DNA of 64,000 bases, taken from Natronococcus sp. CG52 (lineage in GTDB: Archaea; Halobacteriota; Halobacteria; Halobacteriales; Natrialbaceae). Positions 29,474 to 58,198 of the stretch are shown here, in pieces (within the stretch, counting starts at the first letter, position 1; each line of letters begins with the position of its first letter). The position numbers were made by a program, and so were the translations under genes. The stretch is from assembly GCF_023913515.1 (NCBI RefSeq), contig NZ_CP099391.1:3906001-3970000 (forward strand), written 5' to 3'. The notes below the pieces were generated by a model. It saw only the letters and a list, made by a program, of their open reading frames with translations. It was not told the DNA's origin and made no database searches.

Positions 29474-30610
29474 ATGACCGTCATCGTTCTGTACGTCGCA
29501 GCCACCGAATCGGACGCCCTCGAGGGAGCCGCCGCCCTCGAGCGGGCCGCGTCCGATATCTCGGTCGCGCCGGCCGTCTCGCTCGACGCGATCCGCGGGC
29601 GGGCGCCCGCAGCCGACTGCGTCGTCTTCGCCGAGACGCCGACGACCGCCGAGGGCTCGCACCTGCTCGAGGTCGGCGACGCCTGCGACGAAACCCCGCT
29701 GGTGCTCTACGCCGACGCGACCTACGCGCCGACGACCGCCCGCGCAACGGACGGCATCGAGGGGTACATTCGTCGCGACGGCGATCGGTCGACGGTTCAC
29801 CTCGCCGACGAGATTCGCTGGGTCAGTCACGAACCGGCCTCCGGCGAACGGCCGTCACCCGGCGGCGGGGACGGAACGGCTACCGAGTCCGCCGATGAAT
29901 CCGACCGAGGGCACCGCGAACGGATGCTCGCCGCTCAGCGCGACCGCCTCGAGGAGATCGATCGAATCGTCGACGGCGACCTTCGCAGCCCACTCAACCT
30001 CGCCCAGGGCTACCTCGAGATCGCGCGGGAGACGAACGACCCCGACCACGTCGCGGAGGTCGAGGCCGCTCACGAACGGCTCGGGGAGTCGCTCGACGCG
30101 GTGTCGTCCCTCTCGCAGCGACGAGACGTGATCGCCGCGCTCGAACCCGTCGCCCTGCACGATATCGCCCGCCGTTCCTGGGCGCGACTGGACGAACCGG
30201 ACGATCGAACCCTCCACCTCGAGGAGGATCGAGTGCTCGAAGCCGACAAGGAACGGCTCACGGACCTGCTCGAACGACTGTTCCGGCGGAGCGACTCCAG
30301 GGGCAGGGGTGCCGAACCGATGACGATCCACGTCGGCTCGAGTTCGAACGGGTTCTTCGTCGCCGACGACGGCGACGCGATTCCCGAATCGAAGCGCGAG
30401 GATCTCCACGAGACCGACGCCGAGGCACTGGATCGTCGCGGCGACGGCTTCGCGCTCGTCGGACGGATCGCCGAAGCCCACGGCTGGTCGGTGTCGATCG
30501 GCGAGAGCGACGAGGGTGGGACTCGCGTCGACGTCACTGGGACGGCGGTCGACTGGAAGAACGCGTTCGACGGCACCTCGCTCAATTCGGAACTCGAACT
30601 CGAGCGGTGA
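29474..30610 (+). CDS. Histidine-kinase-like sensor lacking the phospho-acceptor His
   Basis: 378 residues: an N-terminal receiver-like domain (about 1-115) without an obvious phosphorylatable Asp pocket, a HisKA-like dimerisation helix (about 150-215) and an HATPase-like domain (about 225-365). The H-box, usually S-H-D-L-R-N-P-L, reads DGDLRSPLN with Gly168 at the His position. The N-box (LTDLLERLFRRSD) lacks its Asn, while G-box sequences (VADDGDAIP, RGDGFALVGRIAEAHGW) remain. It is soluble. Probably a pseudokinase or decoy signalling protein. Confidence 0.75.
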   Translation: MTVIVLYVAATESDALEGAAALERAASDISVAPAVSLDAIRGRAPAADCVVFAETPTTAEGSHLLEVGDACDETPLVLYADATYAPTTARATDGIEGYIRRDGDRSTVHLADEIRWVSHEPASGERPSPGGGDGTATESADESDRGHRERMLAAQRDRLEEIDRIVDGDLRSPLNLAQGYLEIARETNDPDHVAEVEAAHERLGESLDAVSSLSQRRDVIAALEPVALHDIARRSWARLDEPDDRTLHLEEDRVLEADKERLTDLLERLFRRSDSRGRGAEPMTIHVGSSSNGFFVADDGDAIPESKREDLHETDAEALDRRGDGFALVGRIAEAHGWSVSIGESDEGGTRVDVTGTAVDWKNAFDGTSLNSELELER

Positions 30611-43289: not shown

Positions 43290-43733
43290 ATGAACGTACG
43301 GGACGCACTCGAGGCCGACGCCGACGCGCTGGCGGCGATCGCCGACTCACCCACCGACGTGATGCGAAATCTGGTCCACGACCGAACGGTGCGTGTCGCG
43401 GAGGACGGAACCCACGATCCGAACGCGGACGTCTCGGAATCGCAGTACAGCGGCTCGGATCCCGAGGATCTGCTCGGATTCGTCAGTTTCGACGCCCGCG
43501 AGGACACCGTTCACGTCACCCAACTCGACGGCACCCCCGAAGCGTGCAAACGGCTGCTCGCCGAACCGGTTCGGTTCGCCCGACGCGAGTCGATGGCCGT
43601 CGAGGTTCTGGTCGCGTCCGGCGCTAACCCGATCGAGGACGCCGCCGAGGAGTTGGGATTCGAGAAACGAGGACGGGGGCCGCAGTTCGAAGGCGCCTCG
43701 ACGGTTCGGTTCCGGCTGGACCCCGCTAGCTGA
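43290..43733 (+). CDS. GNAT-like acetyltransferase family protein
   Basis: 147 residues, leaderless from TTTATG. MNVRDALEADADALAAIAD is the usual start of haloarchaeal GNAT proteins, but the acetyl-CoA loop is not obvious in LLAEPVRFARRESMAVEVLV, so activity is uncertain. It converges with the DP1 gene, overlapping by 8 nt. Confidence 0.65.
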   Translation: MNVRDALEADADALAAIADSPTDVMRNLVHDRTVRVAEDGTHDPNADVSESQYSGSDPEDLLGFVSFDAREDTVHVTQLDGTPEACKRLLAEPVRFARRESMAVEVLVASGANPIEDAAEELGFEKRGRGPQFEGASTVRFRLDPAS

Positions 43734-45321
43734 ACTTCTGGACCGTGACGTCGAGCGTGTCGAGATCGACGATAGGCGCGTAGCCGGCGTCGGGATCGAT
43801 GTTGACGCTCTTCTGGAAGTCCGTCTGGGCCTGCCAGCAGCCGGAGTTGATCGCGAGCACGTCGTGGTACTTGCCGAAACCGAGCTTGTGAACGTGGCCC
43901 GTGTGGAAGATGTCCGGGACCTCCTCCATGATGAGGTAGTCCCGTTCTTCGGGGGCGAGTCGAGTGTGACCGCCGAACTGCGGCGCGACGTGACGTTTCT
44001 TCAGGAGCTGGTACATCGCCCTGTGGGGATCGTCGTAGCTCGCCTTCTCCTCCGGAAGTTCCGCGATCACCTCGTCGAGCGAGACGCCGTGGTACATCAG
44101 GACGGAGACGCCCTCGAGCGTCACCGTCGACGGGTTGCTCACGATCTGGGCGTCGTGCGCGGACATGATCCCCCGGAGCTCCTCGTCGAATCCGGGCTGA
44201 GGTTCGGCGAGGCGGACCGCGTCGTGGTTCCCCGGAATCATGACGATCTCGATGTCGCCCGGAACCCGTTTGAGATGTTCGTTGAACAGTTCGTACTGCT
44301 CGTAGATGTCGACGACGTCGAGTTCCTCGTCCTGGTTCGGATAGATGCCGACGCCCTCGACCATGTCGCCCGCGATCAGCAGGTACTCGACGTGCTGGGC
44401 CTGCTCCGTGTGGAGCCAGTCGGCAAAGCGGTTCCAGGCGTCGCCCATGAACTCCTGGCTGCCGACGTGGACGTCGCTGATGAGCGCCGCCTGCACGTGA
44501 CGATCGGCGGTCGAGGGCTCGTGCGTCCGCGGAACGTCCGGGAAGTACATCGAGTCGACGAACGCGATCCCCGAGTCGTCGGCGAGCGTCCCCTCCATCG
44601 CCAGCACCTCGTCACGGAGCAGTTCGTCGACGAGGTCGACGTACTCCCGATCCTTCATCACCAGCCACGGGAAGGTTCCGGTGGCGTCCTCGAGTTCTAT
44701 CAGCCAGTGACCGCTCGCCGTCGACCGGATGTCGTTGACCAGACCGACCATCGCGGCGTCGCTACCGCCGGGCATCGACTGGATGGCCGTCGCCGGCCGG
44801 TGGTTGACGCGGCCGCGAAGCTTCGACCCCAGTCGCTCGAGTCGGTCCCGGAAGACGGAGACGAAGTCGCCGTACTCTCCCGTCCCCGTACTCTCGCCGG
44901 TCATGTCGCCGACGATCTCGAGCGAGCGTTCGTCGGGATCCGACGACCTGCCGGCGCCCTGAGACACCCCCTTCGTTTCAACTGGACTACCTCCTGCAGT
45001 GGGCTGAGTATTCGTCTGCGGAGCTCCAGTTGAAGCGGAGGAGTCGGTCGGCGAGGACGGGGCATCCGGTCCGGCGGTTCGGGCGTCGTCGGTGGCGTTC
45101 GATCCGCGATTCCGTCGGTCCGACCCGCTCAGTTCGTTCGGGACCGATTCGACGTGTTCGAGACGAACGACCAGCGCGTCCGACGGAAGCTCCTCGATGA
45201 CGCGCTCGAGCACCGTTACCGGGTCGTCCGCGGACGCAATTCGGGTTACTGCCTCGCGTTCGGCGTTGTAGCCGCGGCTCGTGAGTTCGCTGACGATCCG
45301 GGCGGGCCCCTCGAGTGGCAC
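43726..45321 (-). CDS. polB: DNA polymerase D small subunit (DP1)
   Basis: 531 residues from a GTG at 45321. The C-terminal half is the phosphoesterase-type exonuclease domain: LISDVHVGS, IAGDMVEGVGIYP, MIPGNHDAV, LMYHGVSL and HTGHVHKLGFG, all metal-binding motifs intact. An OB-fold precedes it (about 180-260). Residues about 60-135 are a Ser/Thr/Pro-rich linker typical of haloarchaeal DP1; two ORB-like DNA elements lie within its codons. PolD is an essential archaeal replicative polymerase; the large subunit is not in the window. Confidence 0.92.
   Translation of the reverse strand: MPLEGPARIVSELTSRGYNAEREAVTRIASADDPVTVLERVIEELPSDALVVRLEHVESVPNELSGSDRRNRGSNATDDARTAGPDAPSSPTDSSASTGAPQTNTQPTAGGSPVETKGVSQGAGRSSDPDERSLEIVGDMTGESTGTGEYGDFVSVFRDRLERLGSKLRGRVNHRPATAIQSMPGGSDAAMVGLVNDIRSTASGHWLIELEDATGTFPWLVMKDREYVDLVDELLRDEVLAMEGTLADDSGIAFVDSMYFPDVPRTHEPSTADRHVQAALISDVHVGSQEFMGDAWNRFADWLHTEQAQHVEYLLIAGDMVEGVGIYPNQDEELDVVDIYEQYELFNEHLKRVPGDIEIVMIPGNHDAVRLAEPQPGFDEELRGIMSAHDAQIVSNPSTVTLEGVSVLMYHGVSLDEVIAELPEEKASYDDPHRAMYQLLKKRHVAPQFGGHTRLAPEERDYLIMEEVPDIFHTGHVHKLGFGKYHDVLAINSGCWQAQTDFQKSVNIDPDAGYAPIVDLDTLDVTVQKFS
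44967..44986 (-). repeat. ORB-like element inside the DP1 linker codons
   Basis: CCCCCTTCGTTTCAACTGGA on the plus strand; its reverse strand matches the oriC1 element at 49449 in 19 of 20 bases of the core. It is translated as SPVETKG. A weaker inverted partner (CTCCAGTTGAAGCGGAGGAG) begins at 45024. Confidence 0.6.
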
Positions 45322-46679: not shown

Positions 46680-48410
46680 TCAGTTCTCGAAGCGGGCCTG
46701 TACGAACGGCTGAACGTCGTCGATGTTGCTCAGGCGCGAGTCGCTCAGGAGGACGGCCTCGGTCTCGTCGATCGGAACCGAGAGACTGATCTCCTTCGTT
46801 CGGCCGTACCGTCCCTTCGAGACGACCACGGCGTTGACGATGCCGAGCATGTCGAGTTCGCTGATGAGGTCGGTGACGCGGCGCTGGGTCAGGACGTCGG
46901 CGTCGATCTCCTCGCAGAGGCGCTTGTAGATGTTGAACACCTCGCCGGTGTTGATGCTGTGAACGCCGTTTTTCTCGAGCAAGATGGTCGAGAAGAGGAC
47001 GAGTTTGCTCTGAGTCGGGAGCGTGCGGACGACTTCGACGACGCGGTCGAGTTCGATCTTGTCCTGGGCCTGCCGGACGTGCTCCTCGACGATCGTCTCG
47101 GCCTGAGATCGCTCCGCGAGTTCGCCCGCTGTCCGGAGGAGGTCGAGCGCCCGACGGGCGTCCCCGTGTTCCTGTGCAGCGAAGGCCGCACACAGCGGGA
47201 TCACGTCGCCCGAGAGCGCGTTCCCCTTGAACGCGACCTCCGATCGGTGCTGGAGGATATCTCGCAACTGGTTCGCGTCGTACGGCGGGAAGACGATCTC
47301 CTCCTCGCCGAGACTCGACTTCACGCGCGGATCCAGAAAGTCGGTGAACTTGAGGTCGTTCGAGATGCCGATGATCGAGACTCGCGAGTTCTCGAGTTCG
47401 GAGTTCATCCGCGAGAGGTTGTAGAGCGTGTCGTCGCCGCTCTTCTCGACCAGTTTGTCGATCTCGTCGAGCATGATAACGACGACGCGCTCGTCGTAGT
47501 CGACGGCGTCGAAGAAGACGCTGTAGACCCGATCCGTCGGCCACCCCGTCATCGGGACCTCCTCGAAGGACTCCTTGTCCGCCTCGAGGGAAGCGATTCG
47601 ATCCTCGACTTCGGCGACGGCGGTAAACGGCGTCGACTCGAGCGGATGCGTCGGCGATGGTTCGTCCTCGACTGAGTCGGATGTAGACCCCCCTGTTTCT
47701 AGTGGAGAATCACGGGACACAGCGTCGGTTTCGGTTGCAAACGAAACGCCACTGCCGTCCGTTTTTTCCTCGCCGGTGAGCGGGTCGCCTTCGGCGGATC
47801 GGCCCTGCTGGACGGCGGACTCGAACGGGTCGTCGCTCGTCCCGCCGTCGGTCGGTGATCCATCCTCGGATCGAGAGGGGGCCTCGTTCTCGTACTGTTC
47901 GACGGTCTCGAGGAGTTCCTCGAGGGAGGCGACCTTTTCGTCGATTCGCGCCTTGTTCTTCTCGATGAACTTGTTCGCGAGCTGTGCCAGGACGCGATAC
48001 TGGGTGTCGGTAACCTCGCAGTTGATGTACTCGACGTCACAGGGGACGCTGTACTTCTGGGAGGTGCTCTCGAGTTCCTTGCTGACGAACTTCGCACTCG
48101 CGGTCTTCCCCGTTCCCGTCTTGCCGTAAATCAGGATGTTCGACGGCGTCTCGCCGCGGAGTGCGGCGACGAGGATCGTCGCCATCTTGTTGATCTGATC
48201 ACTTCGATGCGGGAGCTCGTGTGGCGTATAGGAGGGTCTGAGAACCTCCTTGTTCTCGAAGATCGGCTCCCCGCTGAGCAGGTCGTCGAACAATCCCTGA
48301 TTCGGCTCGTCGTCGCCGATTGCCGTTTCCTCGAGCGGCGTCGAAAATCCGTGTGTTCCGTCGGGTTCGACCTCGTCCGCCCCTGGTATCTCCGAGTTGT
48401 CATCTGACAT
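46680..48410 (-). CDS. orc1: Orc1/Cdc6 replication initiator
   Basis: 576 residues. AAA+ core with Walker A YGKTGTGKTA, Walker B VIMLDEIDKL, sensor 1 IGISNDL and sensor 2 GDARRALDLLR, and a C-terminal winged helix (QRRVTDLISELDMLGIV). A haloarchaeal insertion of about 110 acidic, low-complexity residues (about 175-285) splits the AAA+ domain. It binds ORB elements and loads MCM at the adjacent oriC1. ATG at 48410, directly behind an ORB, suggesting autoregulation. Confidence 0.93.
   Translation of the reverse strand: MSDDNSEIPGADEVEPDGTHGFSTPLEETAIGDDEPNQGLFDDLLSGEPIFENKEVLRPSYTPHELPHRSDQINKMATILVAALRGETPSNILIYGKTGTGKTASAKFVSKELESTSQKYSVPCDVEYINCEVTDTQYRVLAQLANKFIEKNKARIDEKVASLEELLETVEQYENEAPSRSEDGSPTDGGTSDDPFESAVQQGRSAEGDPLTGEEKTDGSGVSFATETDAVSRDSPLETGGSTSDSVEDEPSPTHPLESTPFTAVAEVEDRIASLEADKESFEEVPMTGWPTDRVYSVFFDAVDYDERVVVIMLDEIDKLVEKSGDDTLYNLSRMNSELENSRVSIIGISNDLKFTDFLDPRVKSSLGEEEIVFPPYDANQLRDILQHRSEVAFKGNALSGDVIPLCAAFAAQEHGDARRALDLLRTAGELAERSQAETIVEEHVRQAQDKIELDRVVEVVRTLPTQSKLVLFSTILLEKNGVHSINTGEVFNIYKRLCEEIDADVLTQRRVTDLISELDMLGIVNAVVVSKGRYGRTKEISLSVPIDETEAVLLSDSRLSNIDDVQPFVQARFEN
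47688..47709 (-). repeat. ORB-like element inside orc1 insertion codons
   Basis: CCCCCCTGTTTCTAGTGGAG on the plus strand; its reverse strand has the TCCACTAGAAACAGGGGGG form of an ORB with G-string. It is translated as SPLETGG, parallel to SPVETKG in DP1. Confidence 0.5.
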
Positions 48411-48424
48411 CAGTCGTTCGAGTA

Positions 48425-48450
48425 CCCCCTTGTTTCGTGTGGAACACTGG
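48425..48450 (-). repeat. ORB element next to orc1 start
   Basis: CCCCCTTGTTTCGTGTGGAAC followed by ACTGG, 15 nt upstream of the orc1 ATG. It has the full ORB form with G-string and probably serves both origin function and orc1 autoregulation. Confidence 0.7.
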
Positions 48451-49139
48451 TCCAGAAAGCAGGAATATCGGCGCCAGGATGGCCATTGAAGCCGATCCAG
48501 TATGACGGTTACCCGATCCGGATCCAGTTGATGCAAACGAAACAGAGGAAGACCGAGATATTAAATTCTTCCCTTTCACTCACGCACAGTGTAACGTGTT
48601 TTTCACGCGGGCGGGCACATCGGTTAGTAGTGGAGGCCGAGTACCCCCTCTACAGGAACTGGAACCGGCTATTGCGGCGATCAATCTATCTCCGAACGAC
48701 TCGTGTTCGTTTCGCCCCGAAGCGTTTAGCCGACGTCGGATCGGTTCGGGTACCTCTCCTTCACGTCGAACGCGACGATCACCGCTGCACCGAGTCGAAC
48801 GCTAACACATCGTACCGAACGCTGCGTCGATCAGCGCTCGAAAACTGACGGTGGCGGCTCCTCCGTTTGCTCGGTACTCGGTCACTCCGAGAGAGCGTCG
48901 AACCAGCCGGCCGTGAGTAGCGTGTTCCAAGGTCAAAAAGAGCGGAACGCCGGAAAAGGATGGAGCGAGCGCTGGAACGTACCGGGCAATTCGTGTGATA
49001 GCGAATCCTCACGTCGTGTGTCTCCGAAGGTGTCATCACAGATAGTGTAGTGGTCGATCGATAGGTGAGCGGGATTCTGCCGGAAGGAGAGGAAGATGAC
49101 CACGGGGAGTGATAACGCTGGTCACGATGGACGGGGTAA

Positions 49140-49166
49140 CCCCCACCCCTTCGTTTCAGGTGGAAC
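49140..49166 (-). repeat. ORB element, orc1 side of the unwinding region
   Basis: The C-rich run CCCCCACCCC is followed by TTCGTTTCAGGTGGAAC. It is inverted relative to the copy at 49449 and flanks the AT-rich region. Confidence 0.8.
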
Positions 49167-49176
49167 CGTCCGAAGG

Positions 49177-49447
49177 AGGGGGTGGGAACGAGAGTTTTTG
49201 GGATGGAAGGTTTTATAATAGTAGGGCAGAAACAATATCCGCAGCACTAGCAAAAGAGCGCTGTTACTAGGAGAGGGCGTTTATATTACTAGTTACTACT
49301 AGAATTCTCTTTCTAACCCGCTCGAGTTACTAGTCCCTTCGTTCTCCCCGAATTTCCGGTCGAGACGGCTCGAGCGCCCGTCTCGAGAGGAAACCAGGGT
49401 CTCTCTCGAACCGTTCTCCACCGATCCTCCCCCCATACCATCGTCAC
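49177..49447. other. AT-rich putative duplex unwinding element with TTACTAG repeats
   Basis: The most AT-rich part of the window at this scale, including GGTTTTATAATAG. TTACTAG occurs at 49264-49270, 49286-49292 and 49327-49333, with a variant TTACTACTAG at 49293-49302. Confidence 0.7.
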
Positions 49448-49448
49448 T

Positions 49449-49478
49449 CTCCAGTTGAAACGAAGGGGTGGGGGTGGG
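49449..49478 (+). repeat. ORB element with long G-string, oapA side
   Basis: CTCCAGTTGAAACGAAGGGG continues into TGGGGGTGGG. This is the strongest copy and forms an inverted pair with 49140-49166. Confidence 0.82.
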
Positions 49479-49790
49479 TCCGCCGGGATAACACCCATCG
49501 AAATAGCGATCGACCACTACCGATAACGTGAACTCGACACTCTTACTGTAGAACGGTACCATCCTACTATCGATTCATGTTACCGCCCCTCTTAGATGGT
49601 GACTGACTACATCTTTTCGCAGGTTACTGCAAATCGACGATTCGGCCGTCGCTCGCACGTATTCGATCAGTTCACCGCGGATACTGATAATTCAAATCCG
49701 TTGGATAGTAAACACGTCTGACGTAGGCTTAAGTGGGTTCAGTTTGTAGTACGCGCAGATGCACCCCGCGGTGCTGGAGGGCCCCAAAGG

Positions 49791-50429
49791 ATGGGATTGT
49801 TAACAGAACTCAAGGATAGTGTCTCCCGGGTTACGGATCGGTTGTTTACCGACGCGGAACCCAAACGAATCGGTATCTACGGACCGCCCAACGCTGGAAA
49901 GACGACCCTCGCGAATCGGATCGCTCGTGACTGGACGGGCGACGCGATCGGTACGGAGAGTCACGTTCCACACGAAACACGCCGTGCACGCAGGAAAGAA
50001 GACGTCGAGATCGAGCGCAACGGCAAGTCGGTGTCGATCGATATCGTCGACACGCCCGGTGTAACGACGAAAGTCGACTACGAGGAGTTCACCGACGAGA
50101 TGGAAGAGGAGGACGCGATTCGTCGGTCTCGCGAGGCGACCGAGGGGGTCGCCGAGGCGATGCACTGGCTCCGCGAGGACGTCGACGGCGTCATCTACGT
50201 ACTGGACAGCGCAAAAGATCCGATCACGCAGGTCAACACGATGCTGATCGGCATCGTCGAGTCACGCGATCTACCGGTACTCATCTTCGCGAACAAGATC
50301 GACCTCGACGAGTCGAGTGTCAAACGAATCGAGGACGCGTTCCCGCAGCACAAGACGGTGCCGCTGTCTGCAAAGGAGGGAGAAAACATGGACGAGGTCT
50401 ACGACAACATCGCAGAGTACTTCGGGTGA
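49791..50429 (+). CDS. oapA: Era-like GTPase, origin-associated protein A
   Basis: 212 residues with G1 GPPNAGKTT, G3 DTPGV, G4 NKID and G5 LSAKEG, a complete GTP site. In haloarchaea this gene beside oriC1 is called oapA. The ATG at 49791 is used. It overlaps or abuts oapB (a GTGA overlap at 50426 is possible), so the three oap genes form an operon. The exact role at the origin is unknown to me. Confidence 0.85.
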   Translation: MGLLTELKDSVSRVTDRLFTDAEPKRIGIYGPPNAGKTTLANRIARDWTGDAIGTESHVPHETRRARRKEDVEIERNGKSVSIDIVDTPGVTTKVDYEEFTDEMEEEDAIRRSREATEGVAEAMHWLREDVDGVIYVLDSAKDPITQVNTMLIGIVESRDLPVLIFANKIDLDESSVKRIEDAFPQHKTVPLSAKEGENMDEVYDNIAEYFG

Positions 50430-50434
50430 TTACG

Positions 50435-50836
50435 ATGCCGAAAGCAACTAACGCAGACGACCTGGACGGCCCGGACGGTGTGCAAATCGACCTCATCAGC
50501 GGCGAGCGGATGGATCGGATGGCGACGACGGAAAAGATCCGGATGATCCTCGATGGGGTCCACGACGGAAATATCGTCATTCTCGAGGAGGGGCTGACCC
50601 CGGACGAGGAGAGCAAACTCATCGAGATGACGATGGCCGAGATCAGCCCCGACGGCTTCAACGGGATCGAGATCGAGACGTATCCGAAATCGGAGACGCG
50701 TGATTCGTCGCTGCTCGGCCGCATCATGGGGTCGAACGAGTCGACTGCGAAGCTGACGGTGATCGGGCCGGCGAACCAGATCGAAACGCTCCACAAGGAC
50801 GAAACGCTCATCAGCGCGCTGGTGTCCCGTAACTAA
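50435..50836 (+). CDS. oapB: DUF2073 protein, origin-associated protein B
   Basis: 133 residues, soluble, with the conserved VQIDLISGERM ... MATTEKIRMILD start and IVILEEGLTPDEESKLIE. The ATG at 50435 gives the usual start; a GTG at 50426 overlapping the oapA stop would add three residues. Its TAA overlaps the oapC ATG by one base (TAATG). Confidence 0.82.
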   Translation: MPKATNADDLDGPDGVQIDLISGERMDRMATTEKIRMILDGVHDGNIVILEEGLTPDEESKLIEMTMAEISPDGFNGIEIETYPKSETRDSSLLGRIMGSNESTAKLTVIGPANQIETLHKDETLISALVSRN

Positions 50837-51948
50837 TGCCACACCAATGCACGAACTGCGGCCGCACGTTCCCCGACGGCTCCAAGGAGATGCTCTCGGG
50901 CTGTCCCGACTGTGGCGGGAACAAGTTCCAGTTCGCGCCGAGTTCGGGCACGACGGCCGCTGGTACCGCTTCTGAACCGAATGCTGGAGCCGGTGGAGAA
51001 CAAACGGGCGCGGCCGAGACGCCGTCCGGGGATGAGTCCGAACCGAACCCGGACGGCGTCGCGTCCCGCGCTGCGGAGACAGTTCGTGGATGGGTCTCTT
51101 CGGGGTCGAGCGGCGGGTCGACGGCAGACCCAAGGGTCTCTTCGGGGTCGAGCGGCGGGTCGACGGCAGACCCAACGACGACAGATCCGGCGGACACGAC
51201 GACAGCGGACGCAGCGACGACGAACGCAACGGCGACAGAGACGACGGACGCCGAGTCACCGTCGACGACCCCCGAGAACGCCGAGCAGCGGCGTCCGTCG
51301 GAGCCGGCATCGTCCTCGAGCGAAACCCAGTCCGGGACGACGTCGGCTGCCGAGAGCGACGGGTTCTCCGAGTGGCCGGACTCGGCTCGCCGCCCGGAAG
51401 ACCGGTCGTCCGGAACCGAGTCCGGAGACGATCGGTCCGTGACTACACAGTCGTCGACCGAGCAGACTACGGCTCCACGGTCTGTGACGAACGATCAATC
51501 CGCTGGAGTAGCGAACGATCAGCCCGCTGGGATAACGGAGGTCGAGACGACCGTACATCCGGTCGAATCAGAGGACTCTGCACAGGCGAGCGCTCGTAGC
51601 GAAGTCGTTCCGGCGGACGATCTCCCGACGGACGCCGGACAGGACGGCGGCTCCGGAGTGGTCACCGATGTCGGCGGAAGCGCGGAAACCGGCGCAGGCA
51701 GCGAGGACGACCAGCCGCCGAACGACGGCCGGGTCGTTAGCGAGCCGTCAGGTGAACAGCCGTCGATCGAGGATCTCCGGGCGGAACTCAACGAGCAGTT
51801 CGAGAGTATCAAGATCGTTCGTCCCGGACAGTACGAGCTCAACCTCATGGAGCTCTACAACCGCGACGAGTACATCATCTCTCTCCAGGAGGACGGGCGG
51901 TACGTTATCGACGTCCCGGATTCGTGGCACGACGGCGCGGACGAGTAA
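50836..51948 (+). CDS. oapC: Zinc-ribbon protein with long disordered linker, origin-associated protein C
   Basis: 370 residues. The N-terminal zinc ribbon CTNCGRTF ... CPDCGG (residues about 5-27) is followed by about 250 Ser/Thr/Asp/Glu-rich disordered residues and a folded C-terminal domain (about 310-370, EDLRAELNEQFESIKIVRPGQYELNLMEL). A perfect 42-bp tandem duplication adds one extra 14-residue unit to the linker. Third gene of the oap operon. Confidence 0.8.
   Translation: MPHQCTNCGRTFPDGSKEMLSGCPDCGGNKFQFAPSSGTTAAGTASEPNAGAGGEQTGAAETPSGDESEPNPDGVASRAAETVRGWVSSGSSGGSTADPRVSSGSSGGSTADPTTTDPADTTTADAATTNATATETTDAESPSTTPENAEQRRPSEPASSSSETQSGTTSAAESDGFSEWPDSARRPEDRSSGTESGDDRSVTTQSSTEQTTAPRSVTNDQSAGVANDQPAGITEVETTVHPVESEDSAQASARSEVVPADDLPTDAGQDGGSGVVTDVGGSAETGAGSEDDQPPNDGRVVSEPSGEQPSIEDLRAELNEQFESIKIVRPGQYELNLMELYNRDEYIISLQEDGRYVIDVPDSWHDGADE
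51092..51175 (+). repeat. Perfect 42-bp tandem duplication in oapC
   Basis: 51092-51133 and 51134-51175 are identical, in frame, encoding two copies of SSGSSGGSTADP flanked by V and R/T. Perfect identity suggests a recent duplication. Confidence 0.85.
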
Positions 51949-57471: not shown

Positions 57472-58152
57472 ATGAGCGTTCGCGAGGAGTTCGACGACTG
57501 GGCCACGAGCGGAAAGGACAGGGGGATGGAGGAGCGCCACTGGCACACCGCCAAGCACGCGCTCGCGCGGATGCCCGTCGAACCGGGCGATACCGTCCTC
57601 GATCTGGGCTGTGGCAGCGGCTACGCCGGTCGGGCGCTGCGAGACACCAAGGGTGCGGGCCGAGTCTACGGACTCGACGGCTCGCCGGAGATGGCCCACA
57701 ACGCCGCGGGTTACACGGACGACGGCCAGGTCGGCTACGTCGTCGGCGACTTCGGTTCGCTCCCGTTCGCCGACGACTCGATCGATCACATCTGGTCCAT
57801 GGAGGCGTTCTACTACGCCGCCGATCCCCACGAGACGCTCGAGGAGGTCGCCCGCGTGCTTCGTCCCGGCGGAACGTTCTACTGCGCGGTCAACTACTAC
57901 GAGGAAAACGTCCACTCCCGCGAGTGGCAGGAGTTCATCTCGATCGAGATGACCCGCTGGGACCGCGACCAGTACCGCGAGGCGTTCCGCGACGCGGGAC
58001 TCCTCGTCGCCGAACAGGACAACGTTCCGGACCGCGAGATCACGATCCCCGGCGAGGCCGAGTTCCCGCTCGAGGACTGGGACACCCGCGAGGCGATGGT
58101 CGAGCGCTACCGCGAGTACGGCACCCTCCTGACGGTCGGCGTAGCCCCTTGA
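57472..58152 (+). CDS. Class I SAM-dependent methyltransferase
   Basis: 226 residues. The SAM-binding motif VLDLGCGSGYAGRAL (motif I), the acidic GLDGSPEMAHNA (motif II) and LEEVARVLRPGGTFYCAVNYY (motif IV-V) are all present. The substrate is unknown; a small molecule is likely. ATG at 57472. The upstream iron operator hints at iron control. Confidence 0.85.
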   Translation: MSVREEFDDWATSGKDRGMEERHWHTAKHALARMPVEPGDTVLDLGCGSGYAGRALRDTKGAGRVYGLDGSPEMAHNAAGYTDDGQVGYVVGDFGSLPFADDSIDHIWSMEAFYYAADPHETLEEVARVLRPGGTFYCAVNYYEENVHSREWQEFISIEMTRWDRDQYREAFRDAGLLVAEQDNVPDREITIPGEAEFPLEDWDTREAMVERYREYGTLLTVGVAP

Positions 58153-58165
58153 TTTCGGGTCGAAC
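58145..58165 (+). repeat. ORB-like C-run element 1
   Basis: CCCCTTGATTTCGGGTCGAAC begins in the last codons of the methyltransferase gene (Pro-stop). It matches the CCCCTT-n-GTTTC-...-GAAC pattern and recurs 32 bp later. Confidence 0.4.
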
Positions 58166-58176
58166 GGCGCGGCGCA

Positions 58177-58198
58177 CCCCTTGGTTTCCACTCGAACC
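58177..58198 (+). repeat. ORB-like C-run element 2
   Basis: CCCCTTGGTTTCCACTCGAA, then CC. It has the same orientation as the copy at 58145, in the convergent intergenic region. The reverse strand reads as a GAGTGGAAACCAAGGGG ORB-like core. Confidence 0.45.

Follow-up and report, generated by a model that had tools for sequence, protein, structure and literature searches.

In bacterial titration loci, DnaA boxes that lie away from the origin act as sinks, and ParB uses many short parS sites near bacterial origins. One initiator-titration locus, datA, is cited in a study of Haloarcula hispanica (PMC3936714) which, in those portions of it available to us, also describes an archaeal case. There the origin-associated region oriC2D, 11 ORBs in a single 722-bp region directly downstream of cdc6E, is proposed to titrate Cdc6E. 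The same study reports that mutating either extended G-string of H. hispanica oriC1 abolished origin function. The origin oriC1 is conserved across all 15 genomes treated in the available text of PMC3528665. Finally, ORB clusters of Natrinema J7 predicted by Ori-Finder, some of them without cdc6, have been cloned (PMC5350488). Titration by oriC2D and these cdc6-less clusters are, as far as the available portions of both papers go, the nearest published ideas to the arrangement described here.

How does the corresponding locus of Natronococcus sp. CG52 compare? The stretch of DNA analysed (the window) is 64,000 nucleotides long. A sequence-only reading had placed three ORBs in it, the last two inverted about an AT-rich region, and all three were found at those positions (table 1). 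The two inverted arms, of 26 nt each, are 92% complementary and lie 285 nt apart. The AT content between them is 0.48, compared with 0.35 for the whole window, and reaches a maximum of 0.70 among 30-bp blocks at 49210, which bears out the AT-rich region that the pair was said to flank. The third ORB (48424–48445) is 82% identical to 49145–49166 across 22 nt. As a correction to that reading, the extended G-string is confined to the two inner ORBs and is missing from the third. The motif itself is no chance occurrence: with at most two mismatches allowed, it has 16 matches in this genome, counting the copies in an assembly overlap (see below), and the reversed motif has none. Of 80 named loci, 73 have an inverted pair upstream of oapA (two ORBs of at most three mismatches each, 120–450 bp apart), and in 71 of them it is no more than 1.2 kb away.

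The locus shares with oriC1-cdc6A of Haloarcula hispanica and Haloferax mediterranei its orc1/cdc6 neighbour, G-string ORBs inverted about an AT-rich core and an inner G-rich repeat. The latter, recognized by eye and carrying no statistical score, resembles the enhancer of H. hispanica oriC1 (PMC3936714). Architecture, neighbours and initiator type all agree with the haloarchaeal oriC1 organization as set out in the available parts of PMC3528665 and PMC3936714, just as had been claimed. The comparison supports a canonical haloarchaeal oriC1 at this locus, at which replication probably starts, to judge from homology. Taken alone, this is already known. The origin itself differs in no essential from the published ones; ORBs that are far away or internal to DP1 go unmentioned in the portions of those papers available. 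A 17-nt inverted repeat outside the ORBs (49047/49504) was set aside as an origin element, being recognizable only in the nearest relative among the part of a 14-row alignment listed.

The setting between orc1 and oapABC, with DP1 close by, was likewise read correctly, as matches to Pfam and NCBIfam families show. The orc1 product scores 648.9 bits against NF001625 (cut-off 501), and an orthologue is present in 12 of the 12 genomes searched; the Cdc6_C match next nearest to oriC1 in this genome is about 496 kb away. Both OapB and OapC have Pfam matches and neither has an NCBIfam match, while oapA, which was detected in 31 of 31 genomes, does not always have the ORB pair beside it. Since residue 1 of the DP1 frame aligns to model position 16, the gene probably starts some 45 nt beyond 45276. 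A direct repeat of about 42 bp was noticed by eye within oapC (window ~51098–51178). There is also ORB-like sequence within the orc1 coding sequence, both in the window (~47688–47706, four mismatches) and in another genome (G016:C1:2409684, one mismatch).

Table 1. Features of the oriC1 region and its surroundings, in window coordinates.
Feature	Position	Strand	Remarks
DP1, small subunit of DNA polymerase D	43726–45276, to about 45320	−	NF003116, PF04042
Perfect short ORB in DP1 coding sequence	44968–44986	+	variable linker
Convergent partner of DP1 ORB	45025–45043	−	57 bp away; 3 mismatches
orc1/cdc6, oriC1-type initiator	46680–48410	−	NF001625, PF09079
Third ORB, short type	48424–48445	+	without extended G-string; just upstream of orc1 start
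ORB1 of oriC1	49139–49164	+	inverted-repeat arm; extended G-string (C-run on + strand)
G-rich repeat just inside ORBs, left arm	49175–49186	+	read by eye
AT-rich core	49205–49320		presumed unwinding element
Five CTAG sites within 87 bp	49247–49333		starts 49247–49330; 18 in whole window
G-rich repeat just inside ORBs, right arm	~49426–49439		imperfect; read by eye
ORB2 of oriC1, inverted	49450–49475	−	inverted-repeat arm; extended G-string
oapA, small GTPase	49791–50429	+	named by position beside OapB and OapC
oapB	50426–50836	+	PF09846
oapC	50836–51948	+	PF09845
Two tandem weak ORB-like sites	58145–58163, 58177–58195	+	3 mismatches each; ~+9 kb from origin

Does GC skew mark the origin? A switch had been expected at the locus, and none was seen in the stretches sampled. 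In 50 stretches of 14–20 kb, covering roughly one quarter of the chromosome, the mean skew was +0.0004 in the 24 stretches compared to the left and −0.0007 in the 25 to the right (p = 0.88). Because the sampled chromosome has almost no skew, the missing switch is uninformative rather than a refutation; with no switch in the sample, skew was dropped as support for the origin. Nor is there a second oriC1 in the genome. Positions 1–35679 of contig C1 match the contig's own end (the region of window positions 30275–64000) at 99.89%, with 10 mismatches and 29 gap positions. Since head and tail are thus the same 35.7 kb, we conclude that a single oriC1 locus lies on an untrimmed circular contig. The overlap makes genes look duplicated, and the differences between the copies are probably sequencing errors.

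The sequence-only reading had overlooked two things, the ORBs far outside its interval and the clustering of CTAG in the core. Where do the remote ORBs lie? With overlap copies removed and at most two mismatches allowed in the ORB core, this genome has nine sites outside oriC1 ± 2 kb, eight of them within 200 kb, at −104 to +189 kb. Across 24 haloarchaeal genomes (this one, 11 relatives and 12 named genomes), 126 of the 175 sites beyond oriC1 ± 2 kb fall at most 200 kb from it (expected 17.2), about five per genome; the other 49 are farther away or on other replicons. The 12 named genomes alone place 71 of 98 sites within 200 kb. By distance the counts are 40 (2–10 kb), 32 (10–50 kb), 21 (50–100 kb), 33 (100–200 kb), 12 (200–400 kb) and 31 (beyond 400 kb), with six on other replicons. 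Better matches cluster more: 34 of 41 sites with no mismatch, 42 of 46 with one and 50 of 88 with two are within 200 kb, and the first two classes together give 76 of 87 (expected 8.7). Sites with exactly three mismatches hardly cluster in this genome (5 of 25 distinct sites within 200 kb, about two expected), and since that class is near background the tandem weak pair of table 1 is not secure. When the DP1 pair and all sites closer than 10 kb are removed, 78 of 121 sites remain within 200 kb; the maximum across 2000 rotations, from which sites on other replicons were excluded, was 35. The reversed motif gave 0–3 matches per genome and none in the 80 named loci. The orientation of the sites at 10–200 kb is mixed, 40 pointing away from the origin and 46 toward it.

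These counts are not independent, since the 24 genomes share ancestry and some of the sites are orthologous. Eleven of 30 relatives were used, 19 with more than five contigs being left out, together with 12 of the 80 named loci, these being complete or megabase-size contigs although not every such contig. The position of the origin was placed by eye at the inverted pair in each genome, and the length of one genome (G019) was rounded. Taken singly, four of the 24 genomes show no significant excess (G019, G026, G013 and G035; p 0.07–0.38), and in G011 the excess is marginal (p 0.04). The origin region of G011 is scrambled, with the inverted ORB pair at 1,777 kb, orc1 at 431 kb, DP1 at 238 kb and oapA at 2,002 kb (G011:C1; L122, L124, L111, L056). 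Since its DP1, with the ORB pair inside, is about 1.5 Mb from the inverted pair, closeness to oriC1 is not always kept. In six genomes (this one and L119, L121, L123, L129 and L270) two or three ORB-like sites are grouped some 84–141 kb from oriC1; the group of the present genome (G000:C1:126214–126355) sits upstream of htpX.

A search of 60 genomes of the phylum hints that the halo of sites may extend beyond the haloarchaea: in one non-haloarchaeal genome (G048), seven of seven sites, among the matches listed, are within 150 kb. At least five of the 60 have no motif match, and the others have few sites or are drafts. Four non-haloarchaeal genomes (G096, G058, G081 and G065) have, among the matches listed, convergent ORB-like sites about 8–13 kb apart.

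Are the remote ORBs of the same kind as those of the origin? Five or more C among the seven bases past ACCCC were found in 145 of 148 sites of oriC1 pairs, as against 1 of 52 remote sites, 2 of 76 DP1-region ORBs and 1 of 58 third ORBs. The remote sites do share a longer consensus: A precedes the core in 45 of 52 and a purine follows it in 52 of 52, neither base having been used in the search. These 52 are the sites for which sequence was obtained, three of them from a genome (G014) outside the 24; the 10–200 kb band holds 86 sites in the 24 genomes. There seem to be two kinds of ORB, G-string ORBs that are able to fire and short ORBs that probably serve for binding only. According to rough gene calls, made by an ORF filter that missed htpX, 40 sites are intergenic, 12 of them between convergent genes, and 22 of 62 are inside genes, six of these in DP1. 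The neighbours of the sites in this genome (rhodanese, S9 peptidase, M48 protease, ERCC4-type helicase and lactamase-fold proteins) look unrelated, and a regulon of replication genes is unsupported by the genes beside the sites.

Among 87 stretches examined, 59 contained DP1, and an ORB of at most two mismatches lies in the DP1 linker in 48 of these; the remaining 11 have no such ORB within DP1. A convergent pair (at most three mismatches each) is present in 30 of the 59, spaced by 57 bp in 29 and by 56 bp in one. How far the forward ORB lies from the conserved portion of DP1 varies, from 277 to 508 bp, while the spacing of the pair is nearly constant. Is it the peptide or the DNA that is conserved? 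We located the sites by peptide, not by DNA, in 65 DP1 loci, finding the first motif in 42 and the second in 26. Within the first motif the codons CCA, GAA and GGG are each used in 42 of 42 (background 0.05, 0.23 and 0.20), and within the second ACT and GGA are used in 26 of 26 (background 0.05 each), the background being taken from elsewhere in the same DP1 genes. At degenerate ORB bases the DP1 residue varies. The fixation of rarer synonymous codons points to selection at the level of the DNA, qualified by the relatedness of the species; the codon choice rules out a peptide motif as sole cause of the sites. In two Haladaptatus genomes and one Halorarius genome, DP1 still contains the pair at distances from oriC1 of about 20 and 85 kb; the pair evidently travels with DP1.

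What purpose might the short ORBs serve? From the computed anatomy, clustering, extended consensus, missing G-string and DP1 codon selection we infer that Orc1 binds the sites of the halo and that titration is their purpose. A normal oriC1 would be surrounded by short ORBs, candidates for binding only, that keep Orc1 close to the origin, and titration is our first choice, though we regard this account as evenly balanced between right and wrong. Orc1, encoded next door, would bind the two inner ORBs, whose extended G-strings, together with the AT-rich core, would permit melting and MCM loading, and replication would begin. The short ORBs by the orc1 start, in DP1 and, mostly intergenic, out to about 200 kb would hold Orc1. 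Because they are near oriC1 they would double soon after firing, and the doubled sites would lower free Orc1 and discourage a second round. Extra initiator boxes outside the origin core, as a titration locus should have, are present as motif matches at which binding is predicted. Against titration, some five sites per genome would make a small sink should Orc1 be abundant.

Like oriC2D, as far as the available description of that region goes, the halo places initiator boxes beyond the origin core, where they are proposed to reduce the amount of free initiator. Unlike that compact region, it spreads short ORBs over about 400 kb around oriC1, some of them inside genes. Boxes off the origin are also common to datA-type loci; here the initiator is archaeal, and many mostly single sites surround the origin in place of one compact locus.

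Alternatively, the short ORBs may organize the origin region, Orc1 at many points marking or compacting a domain for segregation. We consider this main rival unlikely, and better placed than any of those that follow. The thinning out of the sites with distance from oriC1, their mixed orientation and the 12 of 40 intergenic sites that lie between convergent genes all suit it, but titration predicts an identical distribution of sites. The likeness to parS and ParB is in the many short origin-proximal sites, whereas the box here belongs to the replication initiator itself.

Could Orc1 at the short ORBs instead regulate transcription of nearby genes, orc1 and DP1 included? One ORB does lie at the orc1 start and one pair upstream of htpX in this genome, and an archaeal Orc1-2 is known, from the available text of PMC9738581, as a transcription regulator. 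Yet the sites between convergent genes, those inside genes, the unrelated neighbours and a clustering near oriC1 that regulation leaves unexplained make this improbable. We think it still less probable that the remote ORBs are auxiliary, dormant or decayed origins. In favour of such origins, a cdc6-less cluster of Natrinema J7, oriC10 (pFJ6; oriC12 in the text, oriC10 in the table), replicated well, and another, oriC3 (pFJ7), which lies about 35 kb away from the cdc6-linked oriC4, yielded fewer than 10 cfu per µg, according to the available portions of PMC5350488, in which oriC4 with its cdc6 (pFJ2) gave 0 cfu per µg. The extended G-string, essential in H. hispanica oriC1, is absent from 51 of 52 remote ORBs, many of which are single or tandem, and the DP1 pair is in coding DNA. 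Gene context and the missing G-string are what lower both transcription control and auxiliary origins. That the halo is an artefact of composition, of the shared ancestry of a few conserved genes or of search bias, for which the relatedness of the genomes, the orthology of some sites and the scattered three-mismatch sites might be cited, is very improbable in view of the reversed-motif control, the rotation test, a flanking consensus independent of the search and the tighter clustering of better matches.

For the haloarchaea at large, and perhaps the wider phylum, we lean slightly toward a conserved, distance-limited array of short ORBs, the 57-bp DP1 pair included, that would serve Orc1 as a sink or dock separate from the firing G-string ORBs, a counterpart of titration loci or origin domains, accompanied by CTAG methylation that would mark the unwinding core. 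No publication on remote oriC1-type ORBs or on ORBs inside DP1 was found in the literature searched, whose coverage mostly excluded subscription papers. The archaeal block on double firing and the ordering of origin regions are poorly known, and the halo gives a hint of an intrinsic means of limiting or organizing replication in many related species. Conserved non-origin initiator boxes that lack a firing element offer a direct test in Haloferax or Haloarcula, both of which are amenable to genetics. The sites in DP1 would be a further example of codon choice in a replication gene being constrained by a replication signal.

What of the CTAG sites in the core? In 800 kb sampled from other parts of the chromosome, the richest 100-bp segment contains three, fewer than the cluster of table 1. 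A pair is detectable in 74 of 81 loci, and between the ORBs of these pairs CTAG occurs 235 times in 16,978 bp, or 13.8 per kb, as against 1.8 per kb in the 200-bp flanks and 0.27 per kb in the remainder of those loci. Inside the pair the density is 2.0 per kb in 10 Halorubrum loci and 15.4 per kb in the other 64; a CTAG methylase is reported in only about 37.5% of Halorubrum genomes in the available text of PMC6471742. Clusters of CTAG at haloarchaeal orc1/cdc6 genes, with an orphan methyltransferase, have been described by Blow 2016 (PMC4752239; in the portions available, the legend of Fig 6D gives CTAG and the running text CATG). In H. volcanii, as far as the available part of PMC5867850 goes, enrichment is confined to one origin, oriC2, and the methylase can be lost without a growth defect. 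CTAG is enriched at the origin both here and in PMC4752239, to judge from the portions of that paper available. CTAG clusters at origins are accordingly already published, and what we add is their placement inside the inverted ORB pair. This genome has two PF01555 matches, one of them strong (C1:1829932) and a candidate for the orphan CTAG methyltransferase; the NCBIfam matches of the latter are far below their cut-offs.
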